Shown in pieces: positions 1,330 through 8,377 of a stretch of 16,444 nucleotides of DNA. This DNA is from a bacterium (GTDB lineage Bacteria; CAIJMQ01; JAADFP01): NCBI GenBank assembly GCA_027021085.1, contig JALUVB010000160.1, positions 1 to 16,444 of the forward strand, written 5' to 3'. The notes under the pieces were generated by a model. That model saw nothing but the letters and a program-made list of their open reading frames with translations, ran no database searches and was not told the DNA's origin. Position numbers and translations under genes: made by a program. Numbering within the stretch: position 1 is the first letter of the stretch; every line of letters starts with the position of its first letter.

Positions 1330-2115
1330 TTGGGGATAGTCAATGCAATAATCTTAGGTGTAACCCAGGGGGTTACGGAATTCTTACCCATTTCTTCTTC
1401 CGGCCATTTAGTCTTAATAGGCAAATTCATAAAAATTCCTACCTCTGCCTCCTTCGTTGTCTTTCTCCATGCAGGAAGCCTCCTGGCTATCCTGCTTTAT
1501 TTTTATAAAGATATAAAAAAGATAGCTCTTTCTCTGATTTTTTATAAAAATAAGTCCCTTCACAATGCAAGAAGATTATTTGCCTTTATTGTGCTGGGGA
1601 CATTTCCCATAGCCTTAATAGGGGGTATATGGGAACAGAAGATTGAAGCCGTGTTCCAGAATACATTTTTTCTTTCCTTCGCCTTTTTCTTTACAGGAGT
1701 GCTCCTGTTTTTTTCGGAGAGGTTTCCCTACCGGAAAATTAAGTATATTCAGTATCGTCGTGCCTTTATTATAGGAATTGCCCAGGCTTTTGCCCTTTTG
1801 CCCGGTATTTCCCGTTCAGGAATAACCATTTCTGCCGGGCTTTTTCTTGGTATTAAGAGAAAAGAAAGTTTTCGCTTTGCTTTTCTCCTGGTTATACCTG
1901 CTATCCTGGGAGCTTTGATTAAAACCGGTAGTGTGCGGGAATTCCTGGTGGGGCCGGAAGAAGTAATCGCTTTCCTCTTTGCCTTCCTTTCCGGCTGTGC
2001 TTCTCTGGTTTTGTTAAAGAAGGTCATTTCCCTGCGCAAACTCGCCTATTTTTCCTTTTACCTCTGGGGTATAAGCTTGTTTACCCTGTTCTTAGCTCTG
2101 CGCCATTTTCAGTAG
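1330..2115 (+). CDS. uppP: Undecaprenyl-diphosphatase (UppP/BacA family)
   Basis: Integral membrane phosphatase that dephosphorylates undecaprenyl diphosphate, recycling the lipid carrier for peptidoglycan and polysaccharide synthesis. The 261 residues fit the family (about 255-280). Both signature regions are present: EFLPISSSGHLVLI near residues 17-30 and PGISRSGITISAG near 157-169, carrying the Glu/Ser/His and Arg residues linked to catalysis. Several hydrophobic helices span the protein. The start is TTG at 1330: an in-frame stop lies at 1318-1320, AAAGG at 1319-1323 gives good spacing, and the N-terminus then matches the family (short lead-in to AIILGVTQG). No ATG fits. The stop codon lies inside the first unit of a 7-bp repeat array (2112-2132). 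It may be co-transcribed with hppA or have its own promoter; none is obvious. Confidence 0.95.
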   Translation: MGIVNAIILGVTQGVTEFLPISSSGHLVLIGKFIKIPTSASFVVFLHAGSLLAILLYFYKDIKKIALSLIFYKNKSLHNARRLFAFIVLGTFPIALIGGIWEQKIEAVFQNTFFLSFAFFFTGVLLFFSERFPYRKIKYIQYRRAFIIGIAQAFALLPGISRSGITISAGLFLGIKRKESFRFAFLLVIPAILGALIKTGSVREFLVGPEEVIAFLFAFLSGCASLVLLKKVISLRKLAYFSFYLWGISLFTLFLALRHFQ

Positions 2116-2132
2116 TGAGTAGTTAGTAGCGA
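2112..2132 (+). repeat. Heptamer array GTAGTNA (3 units) overlapping the bacA stop
   Basis: Three consecutive 7-bp units, GTAGTGA, GTAGTTA and GTAGCGA. The first unit supplies the TAG stop codon of bacA (2113-2115). This opens the 393-bp non-coding region between bacA and the Na/Pi cotransporter. A similar remnant (gtagtgag) occurs again near 2420. Confidence 0.75.
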
Positions 2133-2141
2133 GGGGGATTT

Positions 2142-2218
2142 TAGACTATAGACCTTAGACTGTAGACTATAGACTGGGGGGGTAGTGAACAGTGAACAGT
2201 AAACAGTGAACAGTGAAT
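2142..2218 (+). repeat. Composite heptamer array, copy A (TAGACNN x5 then AGTGAAC x5)
   Basis: Five TAGACNN units start at 2142, 2149, 2156, 2163 and 2170, exactly 7 bp apart. A 7-nt G-rich linker follows, then five AGTGAAC-type units start at 2184, 2191, 2198, 2205 and 2212. After it, 2229-2262 holds a looser tandem of tcctggt-like units 7-9 bp apart. It resembles the short tandemly repeated heptanucleotides described from cyanobacteria in form; relationship is not implied. Confidence 0.85.
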
Positions 2219-2305
2219 AGATGGGCGGTATCCTGGTATCTTGGTAATCCTGGTTTCTCGGTAAAGGGATAGATTTCGCAAGAATGACAATAAAACAGCT
2301 CTACC

Positions 2306-2333
2306 TGTCATGCCTGCGGAAGCAGGCATCCAG
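2306..2333. repeat. Palindromic dispersed-repeat element
   Basis: Core inverted repeat atgcctgc-ggaa-gcaggcat at 2310-2329, flanked by ctgtc and ccag. The layout matches the widespread small repeat seen in many genomes as a tgtcat...GCGGAAGC...atccag palindrome (similar in form to Neisseria dRS3). An upstream aatgacaa (2283-2290) may be the remnant of the other end. It lies directly before heptamer array copy B. Function unknown. Confidence 0.7.
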
Positions 2334-2338
2334 GATTT

Positions 2339-2407
2339 TAGACCTTAGACCATAGACTGTAGACTGGGAGATAGTAAGCAGTAAATAGTGAACAGTAAGC
2401 AGTAATT
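2339..2407 (+). repeat. Composite heptamer array, copy B (TAGACNN x4 then AGTRANN x5)
   Basis: Four TAGACNN units start at 2339, 2346, 2353 and 2360, followed by a 6-nt linker and five AGTRANN units starting at 2373, 2380, 2387, 2394 and 2401. Same order and strand as copies A and C, but the second half is more degenerate and the linker is one base shorter. Confidence 0.85.
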
Positions 2408-2483
2408 AAGCGAGTAGATAGTAGTGAGAGGAAGGGGTATCGGGCTTCAGGGAGCAATTCTTCCCCTGGGAGTAAATTTCAGG

Positions 2484-2489
2484 TATAAT
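2484..2489 (+). promoter_or_regulatory. Putative -10 box (TATAAT) for the Na/Pi cotransporter gene
   Basis: A perfect TATAAT lies 19 nt before the ATG at 2509. At 17-nt spacing the -35 position reads ttcccc, a poor match. The expected transcript would start near 2496, giving a leader of about a dozen bases with no clear Shine-Dalgarno. Confidence 0.5.
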
Positions 2490-2508
2490 CACTACGATTT
2501 CTTGAATA

Positions 2509-3600
2509 ATGGAAGAAACCAGAAAATCAGAGGTTATTTTACAGACTCTCCTTGCGTTTATTTATCTCTATCTTTTCTTAACCGGGATAAAACTGCTGGG
2601 AGTATCCCTCAAGGGGTTGGGGAAGGGATTTGCCGAGTCGCTTATTCAGACCACTGCTAATCCCCTGGTGGGACTTTTTATAGGTATCGTTTCCACTGCG
2701 ATTATCCAGTCTTCTTCAGCTACCACTTCTCTTGTGGTAGGGTTCGTTGCTTCCGGCATGTTGCCTCTTTCCCATGCTATCCCTATTATCATGGGTGCCA
2801 ATATTGGCACCACTATAACCAATATCCTGGTTTCTCTGGCACATCTAAGATGGAAGGAGGAGTTCAAGCGGGCGTTTTCCGGAGCAATTGTGCATGATAT
2901 CTTTAATTTTCTCACCGTTATTGTTATCTTTCCCCTGCAGATTAAGTTTCATATTCTCACCAGGGTCTCCTATTACCTGACTGTGTCCTTCCAGCACCTG
3001 GGAGGTTTTACCTTTACTTCCCCCCTGAAGGTTGCGGTGGCACCTGCGGTGAAATTTTTCCTCTTTTTAGTGCGTAGTCATTTTGTCCTGGGGATAATTT
3101 TAGCCTTTGTGCTGGTAATTACTTCCCTGATTTTCCTGGTTAAAATAATCAGGAGGGTTTCCGGGAAGAAGTTAGAACTGCTTCTGGACCGTTATTTGTT
3201 TGTCAATCCCCTGGTAATCGGACTGCTTGGTTTTGCTGTGACTGCTTTTATTCAATCCTCTTCCGTGGCCACTTCGCTTGTAGTGCCTTTGATAGGCGCG
3301 GGGCTTTTAAACGTGGAAAAGATTTTTCCCTATACCTTAGGGGCTAACGTGGGAACTACTTTGACGGCGATTTTAGCCTCCCTGGTAACCGGGGATTTTA
3401 CTTCAATACAGGTTGCTTTCTCTCATCTCGCTTTTAATATCCTGGGAATTCTTGTCTGGTACCCGATGAGAAAGGTTCCCATAGGACTGGCTTACAAGCT
3501 GGGAGAAGTGGTGGGGAGAAAGAGGTGGGTAGCTCTGGTGTATATCCTGGGGATTTTCTTCTTTCTTCCTGGTTTGATAATATTATTCTTTAGGAGGTGA
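2509..3600 (+). CDS. Na+/phosphate cotransporter family protein (Na_Pi_cotrans, NptA/YjbB-like, without PhoU tail)
   Basis: Membrane transporter expected to move inorganic phosphate with Na+; bacterial YjbB-type members may instead export phosphate. The family's inverted duplication is clear: QSSSATT at residues 67-73 with GANIGTT at 96-102, repeated as QSSSVATS at 249-256 with GANVGTT at 278-284, each within hydrophobic helices. At 363 residues it has only the transport core; many homologues of about 540 residues carry a fused C-terminal PhoU-like domain, here encoded by the next gene. The ATG at 2509 is chosen because it follows a TATAAT box and gives a short charged N-terminus before the first helix; no good Shine-Dalgarno is seen. 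The gene ends in AGGAGGTGA, which is also the ribosome site of the downstream gene, indicating tight coupling. Confidence 0.93.
   Translation: MEETRKSEVILQTLLAFIYLYLFLTGIKLLGVSLKGLGKGFAESLIQTTANPLVGLFIGIVSTAIIQSSSATTSLVVGFVASGMLPLSHAIPIIMGANIGTTITNILVSLAHLRWKEEFKRAFSGAIVHDIFNFLTVIVIFPLQIKFHILTRVSYYLTVSFQHLGGFTFTSPLKVAVAPAVKFFLFLVRSHFVLGIILAFVLVITSLIFLVKIIRRVSGKKLELLLDRYLFVNPLVIGLLGFAVTAFIQSSSVATSLVVPLIGAGLLNVEKIFPYTLGANVGTTLTAILASLVTGDFTSIQVAFSHLAFNILGILVWYPMRKVPIGLAYKLGEVVGRKRWVALVYILGIFFFLPGLIILFFRR
3592..3597 (+). promoter_or_regulatory. Shine-Dalgarno AGGAGG overlapping the upstream stop codon
   Basis: AGGAGG with the following TGA stop of the cotransporter gene forms AGGAGGTGA at 3592-3600, a full anti-16S match, 9 nt before the ATG at 3607. 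It fixes that start and implies that ribosomes terminating on the transporter gene lie on the next gene's binding site. Confidence 0.8.
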
Positions 3601-3606
3601 TAGGAG

Positions 3607-4284
3607 ATGTTTCGGAGGTTGATAGAGTTATGGAAGACTTCGGACCTTTTGAGTGTTGCGTATGAAAAGGCGGAGGAAATGTTCTCCAAGGCTTATCAGA
3701 TGTTTGACTATGCTTTGAGGGTGTTGATAGAGAAGGAGAAGGAGAAAGAGGATATTTATAAGAAGGACCGGGAATTAAATGCCCTGGAAATTGATATTCG
3801 CAGAAAGATTCTGGAGCATTTGAGCATTAACCCGTCCCAGGATATTAATCCTGCACTTACTCTTATCAGTTTGATAAAGGATATAGAGAGAATAGGCGAT
3901 TACTCCAAGAATGTTATTGAATTATCCCATAGGTATCCTGAACCATTGAGTGGGGAGTACGTAGAGAGTATCCGCAAGATAGAGAAAAAAGTTAAGAAGG
4001 GGTTTGAGTTAACCGAGGAGGCATTGAGGCAGGGGGACAAGGAAAAAGGAAGAGCGGTGATGGAGACGCATGCCTCTATTGCCAGGGAGTGCGAATTATT
4101 GCTGGAAAAGATAATAGCGGATACTGCGCTTTCTACCCACCTTGCTATTATTTATGTGCTTTTAGTGCGCTACTTGAAGCGAATAAGTGCACACGTGAAA
4201 AATGTTGCCTCCAGTGTGGTTAATCCTTTCCCCCGGTTAGATTATAAGCCCGTGGAACTGGAAAAGCAGGAGAGGGAGTCGTAG
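3607..4284 (+). CDS. PhoU-like domain protein
   Basis: A soluble, all-helical protein of 225 residues with two PhoU-like halves. The first half carries ERIGDYSKN at residues 94-102, matching the acidic metal-binding motif of PhoU (E/D-x3-D). The equivalent second motif, KRISAHVKNVAS at 191-202, has Lys and Ala in place of the acidic residues, so metal binding there may be lost. A highly charged helix rich in Lys/Glu lies near 40-60. It sits 6 nt after the Na/Pi cotransporter gene with a perfect Shine-Dalgarno, so the pair looks like a split version of fused NptA-PhoU transporters; a role in gating or regulating phosphate flux is inferred. There are no pstSCAB or phoBR genes nearby. The last 43 bp overlap the pyrD 3' end on the opposite strand. 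Confidence 0.88.
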   Translation: MFRRLIELWKTSDLLSVAYEKAEEMFSKAYQMFDYALRVLIEKEKEKEDIYKKDRELNALEIDIRRKILEHLSINPSQDINPALTLISLIKDIERIGDYSKNVIELSHRYPEPLSGEYVESIRKIEKKVKKGFELTEEALRQGDKEKGRAVMETHASIARECELLLEKIIADTALSTHLAIIYVLLVRYLKRISAHVKNVASSVVNPFPRLDYKPVELEKQERES

Positions 4285-5138
4285 CCGGAAGAAGCAAGTA
4301 TTTCTTTTAGCTCCTTTGCTATTCTTGCCGGTGCGGAGGGTTCGAGAAGCAGTACACTTCCCAGGCTTACGCAGTTTGCTCCTGCCAGGAAGTAGTCAAT
4401 GATGTCTTTCCCTGCATAGATTCCGCCTGTGCCTATGAGGGGAAGGCTGGTAACTTTCCTGGTTTCTTCGATGAGCCGTAAAGATAGGGGTTTCAGCGGC
4501 GGGCCGGATAATCCTCCCCGGAGTTTTTTGCCTGCTGCATAATAGCAGAGAACGGGTAAGCTGTTTATAAGGTTCAGGGCATCTGCTCCGCCTTCTTCAC
4601 AGGCTAAAGCTACCTCTTTTATATCTGTTACCTGGGGGGAGAGTTTTGCTATTAGCGGGAAAGGAGAAACTCTTTTAGTGTTTTTAATTATTTTTAGGCA
4701 TGTTTCCGGTTCCTGGGCAAAGAGTTTTTGCTTTTTTAGGTTGGGGCAGGAGAGGTTTAATTCCAGGAAGTCTATTCCTCTGAATTCGGAAAGCATCCGG
4801 GCAAGGAGAGGAAATTCTTCTTCTTTAGCTCCTCCTATGCTTACTATCTTTTTCATGGGAAGTTTCAGGAGAGAGGCAAGTTTCTCCTTTATAAAGGCTG
4901 CAACGCCCATATTTGCCAGACCGATAGAGTTTATAATCCCGCCGGGCACCTCGATTATGCGGGGAGGAGGGTTCCCTTCCCGGGGCTGCAGGGTGATGGT
5001 TTTTGTGGTTATGGCTCCCACAGAGTTAGGGTCCAGAAAGGGTATAAGTTCATCGGAGTATCCGGATACTCCGGAAGCAAGTATTACAGGAGTGGTTAAT
5101 TTCTTGCCCAAAAAGTTTACGCTTAAGTTTATTCCCAT
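4242..5138 (-). CDS. pyrD: Dihydroorotate dehydrogenase, class 1B catalytic subunit
   Basis: FMN enzyme that oxidises dihydroorotate to orotate in UMP synthesis, passing electrons to PyrK. The 298 residues fit class 1B (about 300). The motif ELNLSCPN at residues 126-133 contains the class 1 catalytic base Cys131. SGVSGYSDE near 22-30, a lysine-bearing TTKTITLQPREGNPPPR stretch near 44-60, NSIGLANMG at 70-78 and GTGGI with GANCVSLGS near the C-terminus are typical substrate and FMN phosphate contacts. The ATG at 5138 overlaps the 3' end of pyrK by 10 bp, matching the usual pyrK-pyrD pairing and coupled translation. The final 43 bp overlap the convergent PhoU-like gene. No terminator hairpin was seen at the convergent junction. 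Confidence 0.96.
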   Translation of the reverse strand: MGINLSVNFLGKKLTTPVILASGVSGYSDELIPFLDPNSVGAITTKTITLQPREGNPPPRIIEVPGGIINSIGLANMGVAAFIKEKLASLLKLPMKKIVSIGGAKEEEFPLLARMLSEFRGIDFLELNLSCPNLKKQKLFAQEPETCLKIIKNTKRVSPFPLIAKLSPQVTDIKEVALACEEGGADALNLINSLPVLCYYAAGKKLRGGLSGPPLKPLSLRLIEETRKVTSLPLIGTGGIYAGKDIIDYFLAGANCVSLGSVLLLEPSAPARIAKELKEILASSGYDSLSCFSSSTGL

Positions 5139-5896
5139 GCTATCTCATCCGCGTTAAATACCGGGCCTTCCCGGCAGATTCTCTTATAGCCCTGTTTTGT
5201 TTTTACCACGCATCCCTGGCAGATTCCTATCCCGCATCCCATGAACTGTTCGAAAGATACCTCGCAGGCAAATTTTTCCTTCTTTGCGATTAAGTGTATT
5301 TCCTGCAGCATCTCCTTGGCACCGCAAGAGAATATTTTGTTTATTTTTCCCTGGAAATAAGGGATGTGTTTTTTAAGCACATCAGTTACTTTTCCCTTTT
5401 CTCCTGCGCTTCCGTCTTCTGTGGATAGTAAAAACTTTTCCGGGGAGAATCTCTCCCGGAAAACTGTATCCTCGGCGTTTTTAAAACCGAATAAAACGTA
5501 GGGTTCTATGCCGGTTTTTTTCATCTCCTGGTACAGAAAGTGGAGAGGAGCTATTCCTCTCCCTCCTCCTACAAGCAGGGGGACGGTACCGGTATCCCAG
5601 TTAAAAGGAGTGCCTAAGGGGCCCAGCAGGTTGATTTTCTCTTCCTTCTTTTTTTGTGAGAGGGCTTTGGTCCCTCTTCCCACTATTCTGTAAAATACTT
5701 CAATTCTTCTTTTTTTGCTTTGAAAGGAGAAAATAGAGAAGGGACGCCGCAGGAGAAAACAGGGCGGCTCTCCTATCCGAATGTGAACAAATTGCCCGGG
5801 ACGGGGGGGAGGGAATGAGGAGGGAACCTGTAGTTCCAGGAGAAAGTGGGAGGGATTAAGAGGGGTATTCCCGGTTATGGTAAGATTCCATTCCAT
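5129..5896 (-). CDS. pyrK: Dihydroorotate dehydrogenase electron-transfer subunit (FAD, 2Fe-2S)
   Basis: Partner of class 1B PyrD: takes electrons from FMN through a 2Fe-2S cluster and FAD to NAD+. The 255 residues follow the ferredoxin-reductase fold: the FAD motif RPFS at 51-54, a second FAD region around YRIVGRGTKALS at 69-80, nucleotide-binding GGGRGIAP at 110-117, SCGAKEML near 190-197, and a C-terminal cluster motif with C221, C226, C229 and C241 (C-x4-C-x2-C-x11-C), as in PyrK. The ATG at 5896 is 7 nt after the lipoprotein stop; the upstream sequence is purine-rich but has no strong Shine-Dalgarno. The gene overlaps pyrD by 10 bp. Lying downstream of a BatA-like gene and a lipoprotein gene rather than other pyr genes is unusual. 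Confidence 0.95.
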   Translation of the reverse strand: MEWNLTITGNTPLNPSHFLLELQVPSSFPPPRPGQFVHIRIGEPPCFLLRRPFSIFSFQSKKRRIEVFYRIVGRGTKALSQKKKEEKINLLGPLGTPFNWDTGTVPLLVGGGRGIAPLHFLYQEMKKTGIEPYVLFGFKNAEDTVFRERFSPEKFLLSTEDGSAGEKGKVTDVLKKHIPYFQGKINKIFSCGAKEMLQEIHLIAKKEKFACEVSFEQFMGCGIGICQGCVVKTKQGYKRICREGPVFNADEIAWE

Positions 5897-5903
5897 AAGT
5901 TGT

Positions 5904-6077
5904 TTACTTTTTCTCTCTACCCGGTATTTTTGTTTCCACTTCCACGCCTACCCGGTAACTTTTTCCTATTTCTCCTTTCACCTTTATTCTACCCCTGGGT
6001 ACAGTGACACAGCCACTGAGGGTGAATAGCCATCCTGCCATAATTATACCGTAGATTATAATTTTATATCTTTTCAT
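5904..6077 (-). CDS. Small predicted lipoprotein (57 aa), family not recognised
   Basis: A short protein with a basic N-terminus (MKRYK), a hydrophobic segment, and the lipobox LSGC with Cys23 as the predicted lipidation site. This leaves a mature peptide of about 35 residues rich in Lys, Arg, Gly and Val, probably anchored to a membrane on the periplasmic side. The reading frame extends upstream to 6239, but the ATG at 6077 is preferred: it overlaps the BatA-like gene stop as ATGA, has AGGGGAAG just upstream, and places the signal sequence at the true N-terminus. Translational coupling to the BatA-like gene suggests the two products work together. No known family is recognised; small entericidin-like lipoproteins share only the general layout. 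Confidence 0.75.
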   Translation of the reverse strand: MKRYKIIIYGIIMAGWLFTLSGCVTVPRGRIKVKGEIGKSYRVGVEVETKIPGREKK

Positions 6078-8005
6078 TTCTTCCCCTGTCTGAGAAAAAA
6101 CTGCCTCTTTGCTTTTTCCGAGGGTAGGAAGGAATTGGAGAGGATACTTTCCATCCCCAGGATAAAGAGCCCTGCCAAGAGTAAAAGGTTGCCCCAGCCC
6201 TCTGGCTGGAGAGCTTCTTTTTTTTCTTCGCCTCTCCATATAACACTATTGCCCATCTCTTTTTTTGCCTTTTCCCTGCTTATTTTTTGCAGGTCGGATT
6301 CTGCCCGGTTGGAGTTTACCGCAAATGTTTCTCCCTTTATCCCTTTTAAGCGGTAAATTCCCGGTATAAGAGGAGTAAAGTAGCCTTTTGCCCTTATTGT
6401 TTTCCCCCGCGGGTCTACGATGGTAAACATTTTTTGGGAAGAGGGTAAGGTTACCCGGGTGTGGGTGAAAATTGGCTTGAGGGAGTGAGCAGGGGAAAGT
6501 ACCCGGGTAAGAGATGTATAGATAAAGGGGAGGTAATAGGGGGTTAAGGGAAAGTCAGTGCTGGAGAGGGAAAGCGAGGAAGTAAAGAGATAAACCTTGC
6601 CCTTGCCCAGTCTGTTTTCTATGAGTGCGGGGTATCCGCCGGAGAAGTAGAGAAGGATATGGGCGTCTTTTTTTGCTTTTGCGGATATTATATGGCGGAA
6701 GGTGACCCTTTCTTTTAATTCTTTTAAGAGGGGGAAATCAGGGGTGTCTTTCAGGTAGTAGGTGCCCTCCCGGGGGGAAATCAGGTCTGCGGGCAGGAGA
6801 GAAGAAAGAGATGAGTTATAAGCGGGAAGGGATGTGTTTTTGCCCGGCACTATCCAGAGTATCCCACCCTTGTTTACATAATCTGCCAGTATATCCGCTT
6901 CCCGGGGAGTGAACTTTTGCCATTCTAAGAGAAAGACCACGGGATAAGGGGAAAGATTCGCGGGGATTCTGTCTGCCACCACCGGCTGAAGGTAAAAGTT
7001 TTTGTCCTTGGCGGGATTGAGGGCCAGGGAAAGGTAGTAGGCACTATCCGTGTATTTTACCGGAGAGGGGCGTCCGTTCAGGCAGAGTATTTTAACCGGG
7101 GAAAAAGTGGAAAAGGATAGGAACCACAGGTTGTCTTCTTTCAGGTCGTCTTCCGTCACGAGTTTTATTGTTCCTTCATAGTGTCCGGGAGCAAGGTTGG
7201 CGGAAAAGAGGAGAGGAATAGTGGATTCAGGAGGTATCTGGATGTTTTCTTCCCGGAGAAGTTTACCCCCTATGCGCAGCTGTATTTTCCCCTCTTTCGT
7301 GCGCGGGGAGTAATTGTGTAAGGTAAGCTCGAAGGTAACCTTTGTCCCCCGGATGCTTAACTCAGCATTCTCTATACTTGCATTCTCGCCTCCTCTGCCG
7401 TCCACCTCTTCGAAAACGATGGGGAGGGGATAGGAGCTTTTTACCCCGGAGAAGTTTATTTTTTGCATGTCGGAAATGATTATTATTCGCTTTTTCCCCC
7501 GGGGAAATTTGCCCAGAAATTCTACGGACTTATCCAGGAGCTGGTTCAGGGGCAAGGGGGCGTAGAGAACAGGCAGGGAAGAAAGGGTTTTTTCTATGTC
7601 CTTCTTGTAAATATTTTTTCCGTATCCGGTCAAAAGAAAGTAACTCCCGCCTTTTTTAAGGTATTCCTTCACTTTTTCCCCGGCTTTTTCCCGGGGTTCT
7701 CCTTGTTTGGCTTGCATGGAATAAGAATTATCCAGTATGAGCACGGAACGAATATTGGGAGAAAGAGTTTTGCTCACCGGCTGTGCTATGCCTAAGGTTA
7801 AAAGGAGAAGAGCAAGTATGCGCATGAGCAGCAGTAATAGTTCTTTGAGTCTCAGAAAGAAAGTTCTCCGGGTGGAAGAGGGGATGAGAAACCTTAAGCT
7901 GGAAAAGGGGATTACCCGGGCTCTTCTGCGGGCAAGGAAATGAATAAGCAGGGGCGAAACAATAGAAACCAGCCCCAGGAGATACAAAGGATGAAGAAAA
8001 GGCAT
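6074..8005 (-). CDS. BatA-like membrane protein with VWA-type domain
   Basis: Predicted inner-membrane protein of 643 residues. Residues 1-40 match the BatA/aerotolerance N-terminal anchor (hydrophobic helix at about 5-23, then IHFLARRR and SSLRFL), followed by a second helix at about 55-74. A von Willebrand A-type region begins at 87 with the metal-site motif D92-x-S94-x-S96 (LDNSYSM) and later IIIISDMQK. The middle looks like an Ig-like region followed by a glutamine-amidotransferase-like fold (FLLEWQKFTPREADIL, then GGILWIVPG). A last helix lies at about 606-622. Family members probably act in envelope or periplasmic assembly, often with MoxR ATPase and DUF58 proteins; neither is in this window. 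First gene of a minus-strand operon with a lipoprotein, pyrK and pyrD. Start at 8005 is short-leadered, behind TGT-TAAAAT. Confidence 0.85.
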   Translation of the reverse strand: MPFLHPLYLLGLVSIVSPLLIHFLARRRARVIPFSSLRFLIPSSTRRTFFLRLKELLLLLMRILALLLLTLGIAQPVSKTLSPNIRSVLILDNSYSMQAKQGEPREKAGEKVKEYLKKGGSYFLLTGYGKNIYKKDIEKTLSSLPVLYAPLPLNQLLDKSVEFLGKFPRGKKRIIIISDMQKINFSGVKSSYPLPIVFEEVDGRGGENASIENAELSIRGTKVTFELTLHNYSPRTKEGKIQLRIGGKLLREENIQIPPESTIPLLFSANLAPGHYEGTIKLVTEDDLKEDNLWFLSFSTFSPVKILCLNGRPSPVKYTDSAYYLSLALNPAKDKNFYLQPVVADRIPANLSPYPVVFLLEWQKFTPREADILADYVNKGGILWIVPGKNTSLPAYNSSLSSLLPADLISPREGTYYLKDTPDFPLLKELKERVTFRHIISAKAKKDAHILLYFSGGYPALIENRLGKGKVYLFTSSLSLSSTDFPLTPYYLPFIYTSLTRVLSPAHSLKPIFTHTRVTLPSSQKMFTIVDPRGKTIRAKGYFTPLIPGIYRLKGIKGETFAVNSNRAESDLQKISREKAKKEMGNSVIWRGEEKKEALQPEGWGNLLLLAGLFILGMESILSNSFLPSEKAKRQFFLRQGKK

Positions 8006-8017
8006 AACTTATCTTCT

Positions 8018-8026
8018 ATTTTAACA
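8018..8026 (-). promoter_or_regulatory. Putative extended -10 promoter for the minus-strand BatA-like/pyrKD operon
   Basis: On the minus strand the sequence reads TGT-TAAAAT, an extended -10 element, ending 12 nt before the ATG at 8005. The predicted leader is only about 5 nt. No convincing -35 hexamer at 16-18 nt (agaagt at 17). Confidence 0.45.
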
Positions 8027-8088
8027 CTTACTCCTCTTAAACTTCTGCTCAGGTTAGTAAGGAGCCCTGCATAAGTTCAGAAAGATAA

Positions 8089-8151
8089 TAGACTTTAGAC
8101 CATAGACCTTAGACTATAGACTGGGTGAATAGTGAACAGTGAAGAGTGAAT
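8089..8151 (+). repeat. Composite heptamer array, copy C (TAGACNN x5 then AGTGAAC-type x3-4)
   Basis: Five TAGACNN units start at 8089, 8096, 8103, 8110 and 8117. A degenerate GGTGAAT unit (8124) and three AGTGAAN units (8131, 8138, 8145) follow. The offset between the last TAGAC and the first clear AGTGAAC unit is 14 bp, identical to copy A. Part of the 372-bp gene-free region between the divergent BatA-like and glycosyltransferase genes. Confidence 0.85.
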
Positions 8152-8170
8152 GGGTTTCCTGTCTGCCTTC

Positions 8171-8187
8171 CCCGACCTAAAGTCGGG
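8171..8187. repeat. Short palindrome cccgac-ctaaa-gtcggg
   Basis: A 6-bp perfect inverted repeat with a 5-nt loop, embedded in a longer imperfect palindrome (pyrimidine-rich left arm, gatcgggagcaggc right arm to about 8200). It is similar in character to small REP-like elements and sits between the composite array and the AACTNAC array. Not followed by a T-run. Confidence 0.5.
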
Positions 8188-8252
8188 ATCGGGAGCAGGC
8201 GGGTATGTCGGGACTGACAACTCTTCCAGGATACAGGCGGGGGAACAGGTGG

Positions 8253-8287
8253 AACTAACAACTCACAACTAAGAACTGACAACTTCT
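8253..8287 (+). repeat. Heptamer array AACTNAC (about 5 units)
   Basis: Units start at 8253, 8260, 8267, 8274 and 8281 (AACTAAC, AACTCAC, AACTAAG, AACTGAC, AACTTCT), again exactly 7 bp apart. Two related units (gactgac, aactctt) occur at 8212-8225. From here to the promoter near 8341 nothing else is recognisable. Confidence 0.75.
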
Positions 8288-8340
8288 CCCGGTGAACATG
8301 GGGAAAGGAGCAGGAAGAATTTTTCCAGTATCTTAGAACC

Positions 8341-8369
8341 TCTACAGAGGCTTATTTTTCTGGTAAAAT
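8341..8369 (+). promoter_or_regulatory. Putative promoter of the glycosyltransferase-vor-rfaE1 operon
   Basis: TCTACA (8341-8346, 4 of 6 to the -35 consensus), a 17-nt spacer ending in TGG, then TAAAAT (8364-8369), an extended -10. The -10 ends 8 nt before the GTG at 8378, so transcription would begin at or within two bases of the start codon: a leaderless arrangement. Confidence 0.55.
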
Positions 8370-8377
8370 GTTACACA

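Follow-up and report, generated by a model that had tools for sequence, protein, structure and literature searches.

What kind of sequence is the paired heptamer repeat that recurs three times within one 16,444-nt stretch of DNA from an uncultured bacterium (GenBank assembly GCA_027021085.1, contig JALUVB010000160.1; GTDB lineage CAIJMQ01; JAADFP01), and what holds it in place? This stretch, the window, is contig 160 of the source genome, G000 (1.93 Mb, 307 contigs). In each of three copies, A, B and C, an array of TAGACNN units (module T) is followed after a short spacer, on the same strand, by an array of AGTRANN units (module A; search pattern AGTRARY). The question extends beyond one locus, as heptamer arrays in distant bacteria have no accepted origin or function and slippage is their usual explanation. 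In G000 the arrays form a dispersed mosaic with a fixed-order composite, high turnover relative to a sister species, coding-strand placement after stop codons and a near-absence of identical neighbouring units. The explanation proposed here, in which confidence and doubt are about evenly matched, is that these are mosaic repeats of degenerate heptamer arrays that are copied and settle behind genes as transcribed 3'-end sequence, where they are tolerated or favoured.

The composite and the surrounding mosaic

The three composites of the window are as follows.

2142..2174, + strand: copy A TAGACNN array, 5 cores (TAGACNN x4 plus TAGAC), NN = TA-CT-TG-TA
2175..2183, + strand: copy A spacer TGGGGGGGT, 9 bp
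2184..2218, + strand: copy A AGTRANN array, 5 units
2339..2364, + strand: copy B TAGACNN array, 4 cores, NN = CT-CA-TG
2365..2372, + strand: copy B spacer TGGGAGAT, 8 bp
2373..2400, + strand: copy B AGTRANN array, 4 units; a GTAGNNR array comes next, to about 2432
8089..8121, + strand: copy C TAGACNN array, 5 cores, NN = TT-CA-CT-TA
8122..8130, + strand: copy C spacer TGGGTGAAT, 9 bp
8131..8151, + strand: copy C AGTGANN array, 3 units (AGTGAAC, AGTGAAG, AGTGAAT)

An original prediction, made from the letters of the window, had located these composites correctly to the base, and the offsets that it gave from the start of the last TAGAC to the start of the first AGT (14, 13 and 14 bp in A, B and C) agree with those found. 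Eight matches to a triple TAGAC core and five to an AGTRAAC pair were present in the window, with none of either in 200 dinucleotide shuffles. Rfam models gave no match to the window, and a CRISPR array is excluded by the architecture, which consists of a 5-bp core and a 2-bp interval and not of long repeats with unique spacers of similar length.

Across G000 the triple core was matched 328 times, evenly on the two strands (reversed-pattern control, 0), and the complete TAGACNN-spacer-AGTRANN pattern 78 times, as against 6 in G001, the single genome of the same genus (a sister species) that was compared; the control gave 0, and no match was found across 288 other genomes. Array counts were taken from sampled stretches, amounting to 587 kb (grammar) or 722 kb of G000 and 251 kb of G001, with all modules read on the strand of the composite and genes called as simple open reading frames of at least 150 aa. 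T arrays with at least 2 cores numbered 137 in the 587 kb of G000, and in 55 cases A followed on the same strand within 60 bp. The spacer, usually TGGGAGAT-like, was 8 bp or 9 bp long in 47 of these 55 pairs, and there was a single case of the reverse order (A before T). The pairing, order and spacing thus recur as predicted, and the two kinds of array are neither mostly apart nor randomly ordered.

The composite is nonetheless one junction of a larger mosaic that includes GTAGNNR arrays (module S), GGTATCC repeats, AACTNNC arrays (module C) and repetitive extragenic palindromic (REP)-like palindromes. Further modules are a GGTATCCT-type repeat (V), a GATACAG-type array (D) and the palindrome GTCATGCCTGCG.AAGCAGGCATCCAGG (P). 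T is often preceded in G000 by S (28 cases) or P (10), and A is followed by V (35) or S (30), whereas in G001 S follows T more often than A does (16 vs 6); the modules are common to both species and the favoured junction is species-specific. The proposal of one dispersed composite element copied as a unit therefore holds in part: multi-module pieces appear to be copied, among them a 185-bp segment of 96% identity between copy A and contig 159, but there is no single fixed element, as TAGACNN also joins GTAGNNR arrays, palindromes and other modules. The remaining features of the window illustrate the mosaic.

1330-2115, + strand: uppP/bacA gene, its stop codon (2113-2115) inside the S array
2111..2138, + strand: GTAGNNR array (S), ahead of copy A; TAG at 2113-2115 is the stop of uppP/bacA
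2226..2264, + strand: GGTATCCT-type degenerate repeat (V), the module usually next after A
2307..2334, + strand: dispersed palindrome GTCATGCCTGCGGAAGCAGGCATCCAGG (P), between copies A and B
8171..8187, no strand: short palindrome CCCGACCTAAAGTCGGG, copy C gap
8253..8284, + strand: AACTNNC array (C), copy C gap, alternating AACTAAC and AACTCAC

Copies A and B are located between uppP/bacA and a Na/Pi cotransporter gene, both on the + strand, and copy C occupies the gap within a divergent pair, a BatA-like gene (-) and a glycosyltransferase gene (+), so that the suggested flanking of a convergent gene block is incidental. Several arrays per window are normal, with about 140 estimated genome-wide (scaled to the 328 matches from 88 arrays of 3 or more cores in the 722 kb sampled).

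Units, neighbours and the case against slippage

The TAGACNN arrays are degenerate within narrow limits. Intervals in the G000 sample used 8 of the 16 dinucleotides (TA, TT, TG, CA, CT, CG, GT and AT), joined in G001 by a few cases of AA and AC, and one GA was also observed; in G000 NN never ended in C, which would give CTAG, and purine-purine was absent. The core was a perfect TAGAC in 264 of 304 internal units, CAGAC and GAGAC being the commonest imperfect forms and TAAAC and TGAAC never seen. Adjacent intervals were equal in only 1 of 202 TAGACNN pairs in G000, where shuffling predicted 34.5 and column-wise shuffling, which excludes position-specific NN composition as the cause, predicted 23; in G001 the count was 0 of 59 (9 expected). 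Identical neighbours were likewise scarce among AGTRARY units (21 of 257, 46 expected) and GTAGNNR units (8 of 152, 31 expected). The deficit persists after identical arrays are dropped, and it is confined to lag 1, lags 2 and 3 showing none. TAGACRG arrays of other phyla contained 72 identical neighbours against 70 expected, and as these are mostly metagenome-assembled too, assembly collapse is unlikely to be the cause. The earlier suggestion of drifting bases within a maintained periodicity is incomplete: the core hardly drifts, and the interval, besides being restricted, avoids that of its neighbour.

These observations bear directly on ordinary growth of heptanucleotide microsatellites by polymerase slippage. 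In many bacterial genomes the longer simple repeats are most often heptamers, for which an origin by slippage has been suggested (Mrazek 2007, as cited in PMC4679880). However, the near-absence of identical neighbours argues against growth of this type, all three heptamer families falling below expectation; arrays of at least 3 cores peak at 5 cores in the sample with none above 6, and two different arrays stand in fixed order and spacing. Slippage as the source of the arrays is thus very improbable, in keeping with the original view that independent microsatellite growth would not yield the pairing. For the arrays of this genus the neighbour deficit contradicts the usual explanation, and it offers a simple statistic for other arrays.

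A more specific alternative is that array building or maintenance bars equal neighbours, with a fixed core, 8 of 16 intervals and a like deficit in several heptamer families; this would indicate an undescribed array-building or array-reading system at gene 3' ends, and we put it forward as a tentative and rather unlikely possibility. Less probable still is a multi-site binding platform, in which a protein would recognise the 5-base core at each 7-base step along DNA or RNA and mixed intervals would keep the units distinct. The conserved core, the fixed period and the near-common register of the two arrays (spacer 8 or 9) are consistent with such a platform, and readers of the S1, Csp or CsrA type have been proposed for TAACTGA arrays (MacGregor 2015, PMC4679880). 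However, no candidate reader was identified, and placement differs strongly between two species of one genus.

Placement behind genes and probable copying between gaps

T arrays with at least 3 cores rarely lie inside genes (1 of 88 in G000, 3 of 33 in G001). Within 0-60 bp after gene ends, sense and antisense arrays numbered 29:1 for T, 18:1 for A and 12:2 for S in G000, and 12:1, 3:0 and 4:0 in G001, with modules V, P, C and D nearly absent from this interval. In gaps between co-directional genes, arrays ran with the genes in 24 of 32 cases in G000 and 18 of 24 in G001, or 42 of 56 overall (about 3:1). The stop codon itself is part of an array in 11 G000 genes and 9 G001 genes; uppP/bacA, one of the former, ends ALRHFQ-TAG, whereas its G001 orthologue ends ALRHSG-TGA. 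Every S, T and A unit holds a stop triplet (TAG, TAG and TRA), and since 7 is not divisible by 3, all reading frames are closed after three units.

On the proposed explanation, pieces of about 60-250 bp, often of several modules, would be copied from gap to gap and recombined, the TAGACNN-spacer-AGTRANN junction having been multiplied in the G000 species. Arrays would settle behind genes, reading with the upstream gene, and would then form the start of its 3' untranslated RNA. Three-frame closure by S, T and A could allow them to occupy or supply a gene's stop without damage, and they may serve as stop or insulation or as an RNA 3'-end element. Once settled, the arrays would keep the 7-bp register and fixed core, and runs of identical units may be absent either because slippage removes identical neighbours or because only mixed arrays work.

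Several points weigh against this explanation. When arrays less than 60 bp from a stop are ignored, the ratio falls to 17:8 in G000 and 8:6 in G001 (25:14 in total), which is not significant; the orientation bias is real, yet concentrated near stops. Part of the bias (29:1) also reflects the standing of S and T at the front of the mosaic. In addition, imperfect TAGAC cores show no preference for changes that preserve the stop, and GGGAATC heptamers, which lack a stop triplet, are placed alike in Xanthomonas and Nostoc (PMC4692102), so stop codons are unnecessary to explain the placement. Taken with the variation of the core, this makes a 3'-end role based on RNA or on a purine-rich coding strand as good as a translational backstop. 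The shared preference in these unrelated heptamers suggests that they have a 3'-end role in common or spread in the same way. Three narrower ideas were dropped: a core constrained purely as a stop codon, as stop-preserving core changes are absent; selection for stops on the antisense strand, where stopped frames are close to the shuffled-NN expectation; and arrays pointing inward at every gap edge in the manner of terminal inverted repeats, which holds at gene 3' ends (40:14) and fails at 5' ends (25:33).

Evidence for copying comes from segments spanning several modules that recur in unrelated gaps, at 90-97% identity and with lengths of up to 244 bp; the 185-bp segment described above begins in the TAGAC array and stops at the palindrome. 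Turnover is seen against G001: the genes on either side remain collinear (about 85% DNA identity), yet array-bearing gaps are nearly unalignable. Among 20 orthologous gaps, T arrays were present in both species in 7, in G000 only in 6 and in neither in 7, although the contigs compared were partly picked for arrays and the figures are not unbiased rates. At the copy A/B gap the sister species carries S and A arrays and other repeats, with no intact T, and its counterpart of the copy C gap (L201:3295-3937 vs window 8040-8370) is occupied by a PIN-domain toxin-like gene, upstream of which lies a small open reading frame, possibly an antitoxin. About 2.3 kb of apparently coding sequence was also present in G000 and missing in the sister, with a TAGACNN array at its boundary (L042:3670-6200 vs L207:2675-2960), so that gene gain or loss may use arrays; more generally, arrays at sites of differing gene content may help gene gain and loss between sister species. 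G000 also contains another dispersed element (L036:8773-8933, L039:77-253, L040:7598-7739 and others), about 135 bp long and of near-fixed sequence, with palindromes, CCCCCATGT-TAGACTATAGACATCAGACTTTAGACATTAGAC-GGGAAAGACACATGATACGGGG and reversed AGTRANN units; its core was counted 11 times in the 722 kb of G000 and not once in the 251 kb of G001.

It is possible, though doubtful, that the mosaic is selfish or neutral, consisting of functionless copies resembling miniature inverted-repeat transposable elements or REP sequences, spread by a host tyrosine transposase or by gene conversion, with placement reflecting harmless insertion sites. The high turnover, the near-identical dispersed segments and the REP-like palindromes among the modules would fit this origin, and the genome has two Y1 (IS200/IS605/RAYT-type) transposase genes (G000:C298:11936-12178 and G000:C45:839-1075), with one copy of a REP-like palindrome about 0.6 kb from the latter. 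However, no arrays adjoin either gene, TAGACNN pairs being absent from C45 and from the first 20 kb of C298, and neither constant element ends nor target duplications were seen, the sister-species gaps being too diverged to show the latter. The 7-bp register, restricted intervals and neighbour non-identity would also be unexpected in neutral relics. A reverse-transcriptase origin was dropped, the genome having no RVT_1 match.

Relation to other arrays and known repeat systems

TAGAC arrays also occur, among the matches listed, in Anaerolineales, Thermoflexus, Nitrospirota, Planctomycetota, Elusimicrobia and others, and in 8 viral-contig stretches. The TAGACRG arrays (Anaerolineales, Thermoflexus, Nitrospirota and others; L055-L134) share the TAGAC core and 7-bp period with G000, but their NN is mostly AG or GG, many are mirrored as hairpins, and neighbour identity is at chance. 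These hairpins often fill the space from a stop codon to the next ribosome-binding site (L105:4688-4760, L107:1204-1260, L129:5045-5110 and other Anaerolineales and Thermoflexus loci), and their arms have the same R base in 20 of 60 pairs against 29 expected, with some loci counted from both strands, as if perfect palindromes were avoided. In G006, from another family of the class, TAGACNN arrays using the same mixture of NN letters stand as a convergent inverted pair (L219:12418-12510), a form between the arrays of the window and the Anaerolineales hairpins.

The T and A arrays might form a transcript hairpin, a decayed form of the TAGACRG hairpins, which in Anaerolineales and relatives fold into long structures (mean z -7.5); antisense T/A pairing does reach -8.98 kcal/mol against -5.51 for shuffled letters. 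However, the composites fold weakly (mean z -0.28 for the sense and -1.06 for the antisense strand), and an array pairs as well with a partner taken from another locus as with its own, so that there is no locus-specific co-variation. Such a hairpin is hardly credible and was rejected.

Among described repeats, the cyanobacterial short tandemly repeated repetitive (STRR) heptanucleotides of Calothrix and Nostoc likewise comprise several heptamer types dispersed between genes, with different sequences. The GGGAATC or GGGANTN arrays of Xanthomonas and GGGGA(T/C)T arrays of Nostoc (Rehm et al. 2015, PMC4692102) are degenerate heptamers with a fixed core and N positions, mostly of about 4 units, intergenic and on both strands, and they lie on the coding strand less than 50 bp from stops, some overlapping the stop codon, with inverted pairs common. 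Unlike the G000 arrays, they form G-quadruplexes, lack a stop triplet and extend to perfect runs of 14 identical units; no second array type at fixed spacing has been reported, and most loci are common to two Xanthomonas species. The TAACTGA direct repeats of Beggiatoaceae, Cyanobacteria and Bacteroidetes (MacGregor 2015, PMC4679880) resemble those of G000 in being intergenic arrays with three-frame stops, a property noted by MacGregor, in overlapping gene ends, in the admixture of other heptamers in some genomes and in a patchy distribution across phyla. However, those arrays repeat a single exact heptamer, which in the genome chiefly examined mostly stands immediately ahead of start codons; repetition of related heptamers is rare, and a composite grammar was not reported. 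REP and GTAG-tagged palindromes (PMC3733652) are also short dispersed repeats downstream of coding regions, and REP-like palindromes occur in the mosaic, where module P is palindromic; the adjacent TAGACNN and AGTRANN arrays, in contrast, are non-palindromic and fold like shuffled sequence. With intergenic bacterial heptamer arrays of the STRR, GGGAATC and TAACTGA kind the present arrays share 7-bp intergenic units and coding-strand, stop-proximal placement, the latter weaker gap by gap. The kind of array is thus already described in other bacteria, and the sequence, the composite grammar and the neighbour rule are new.

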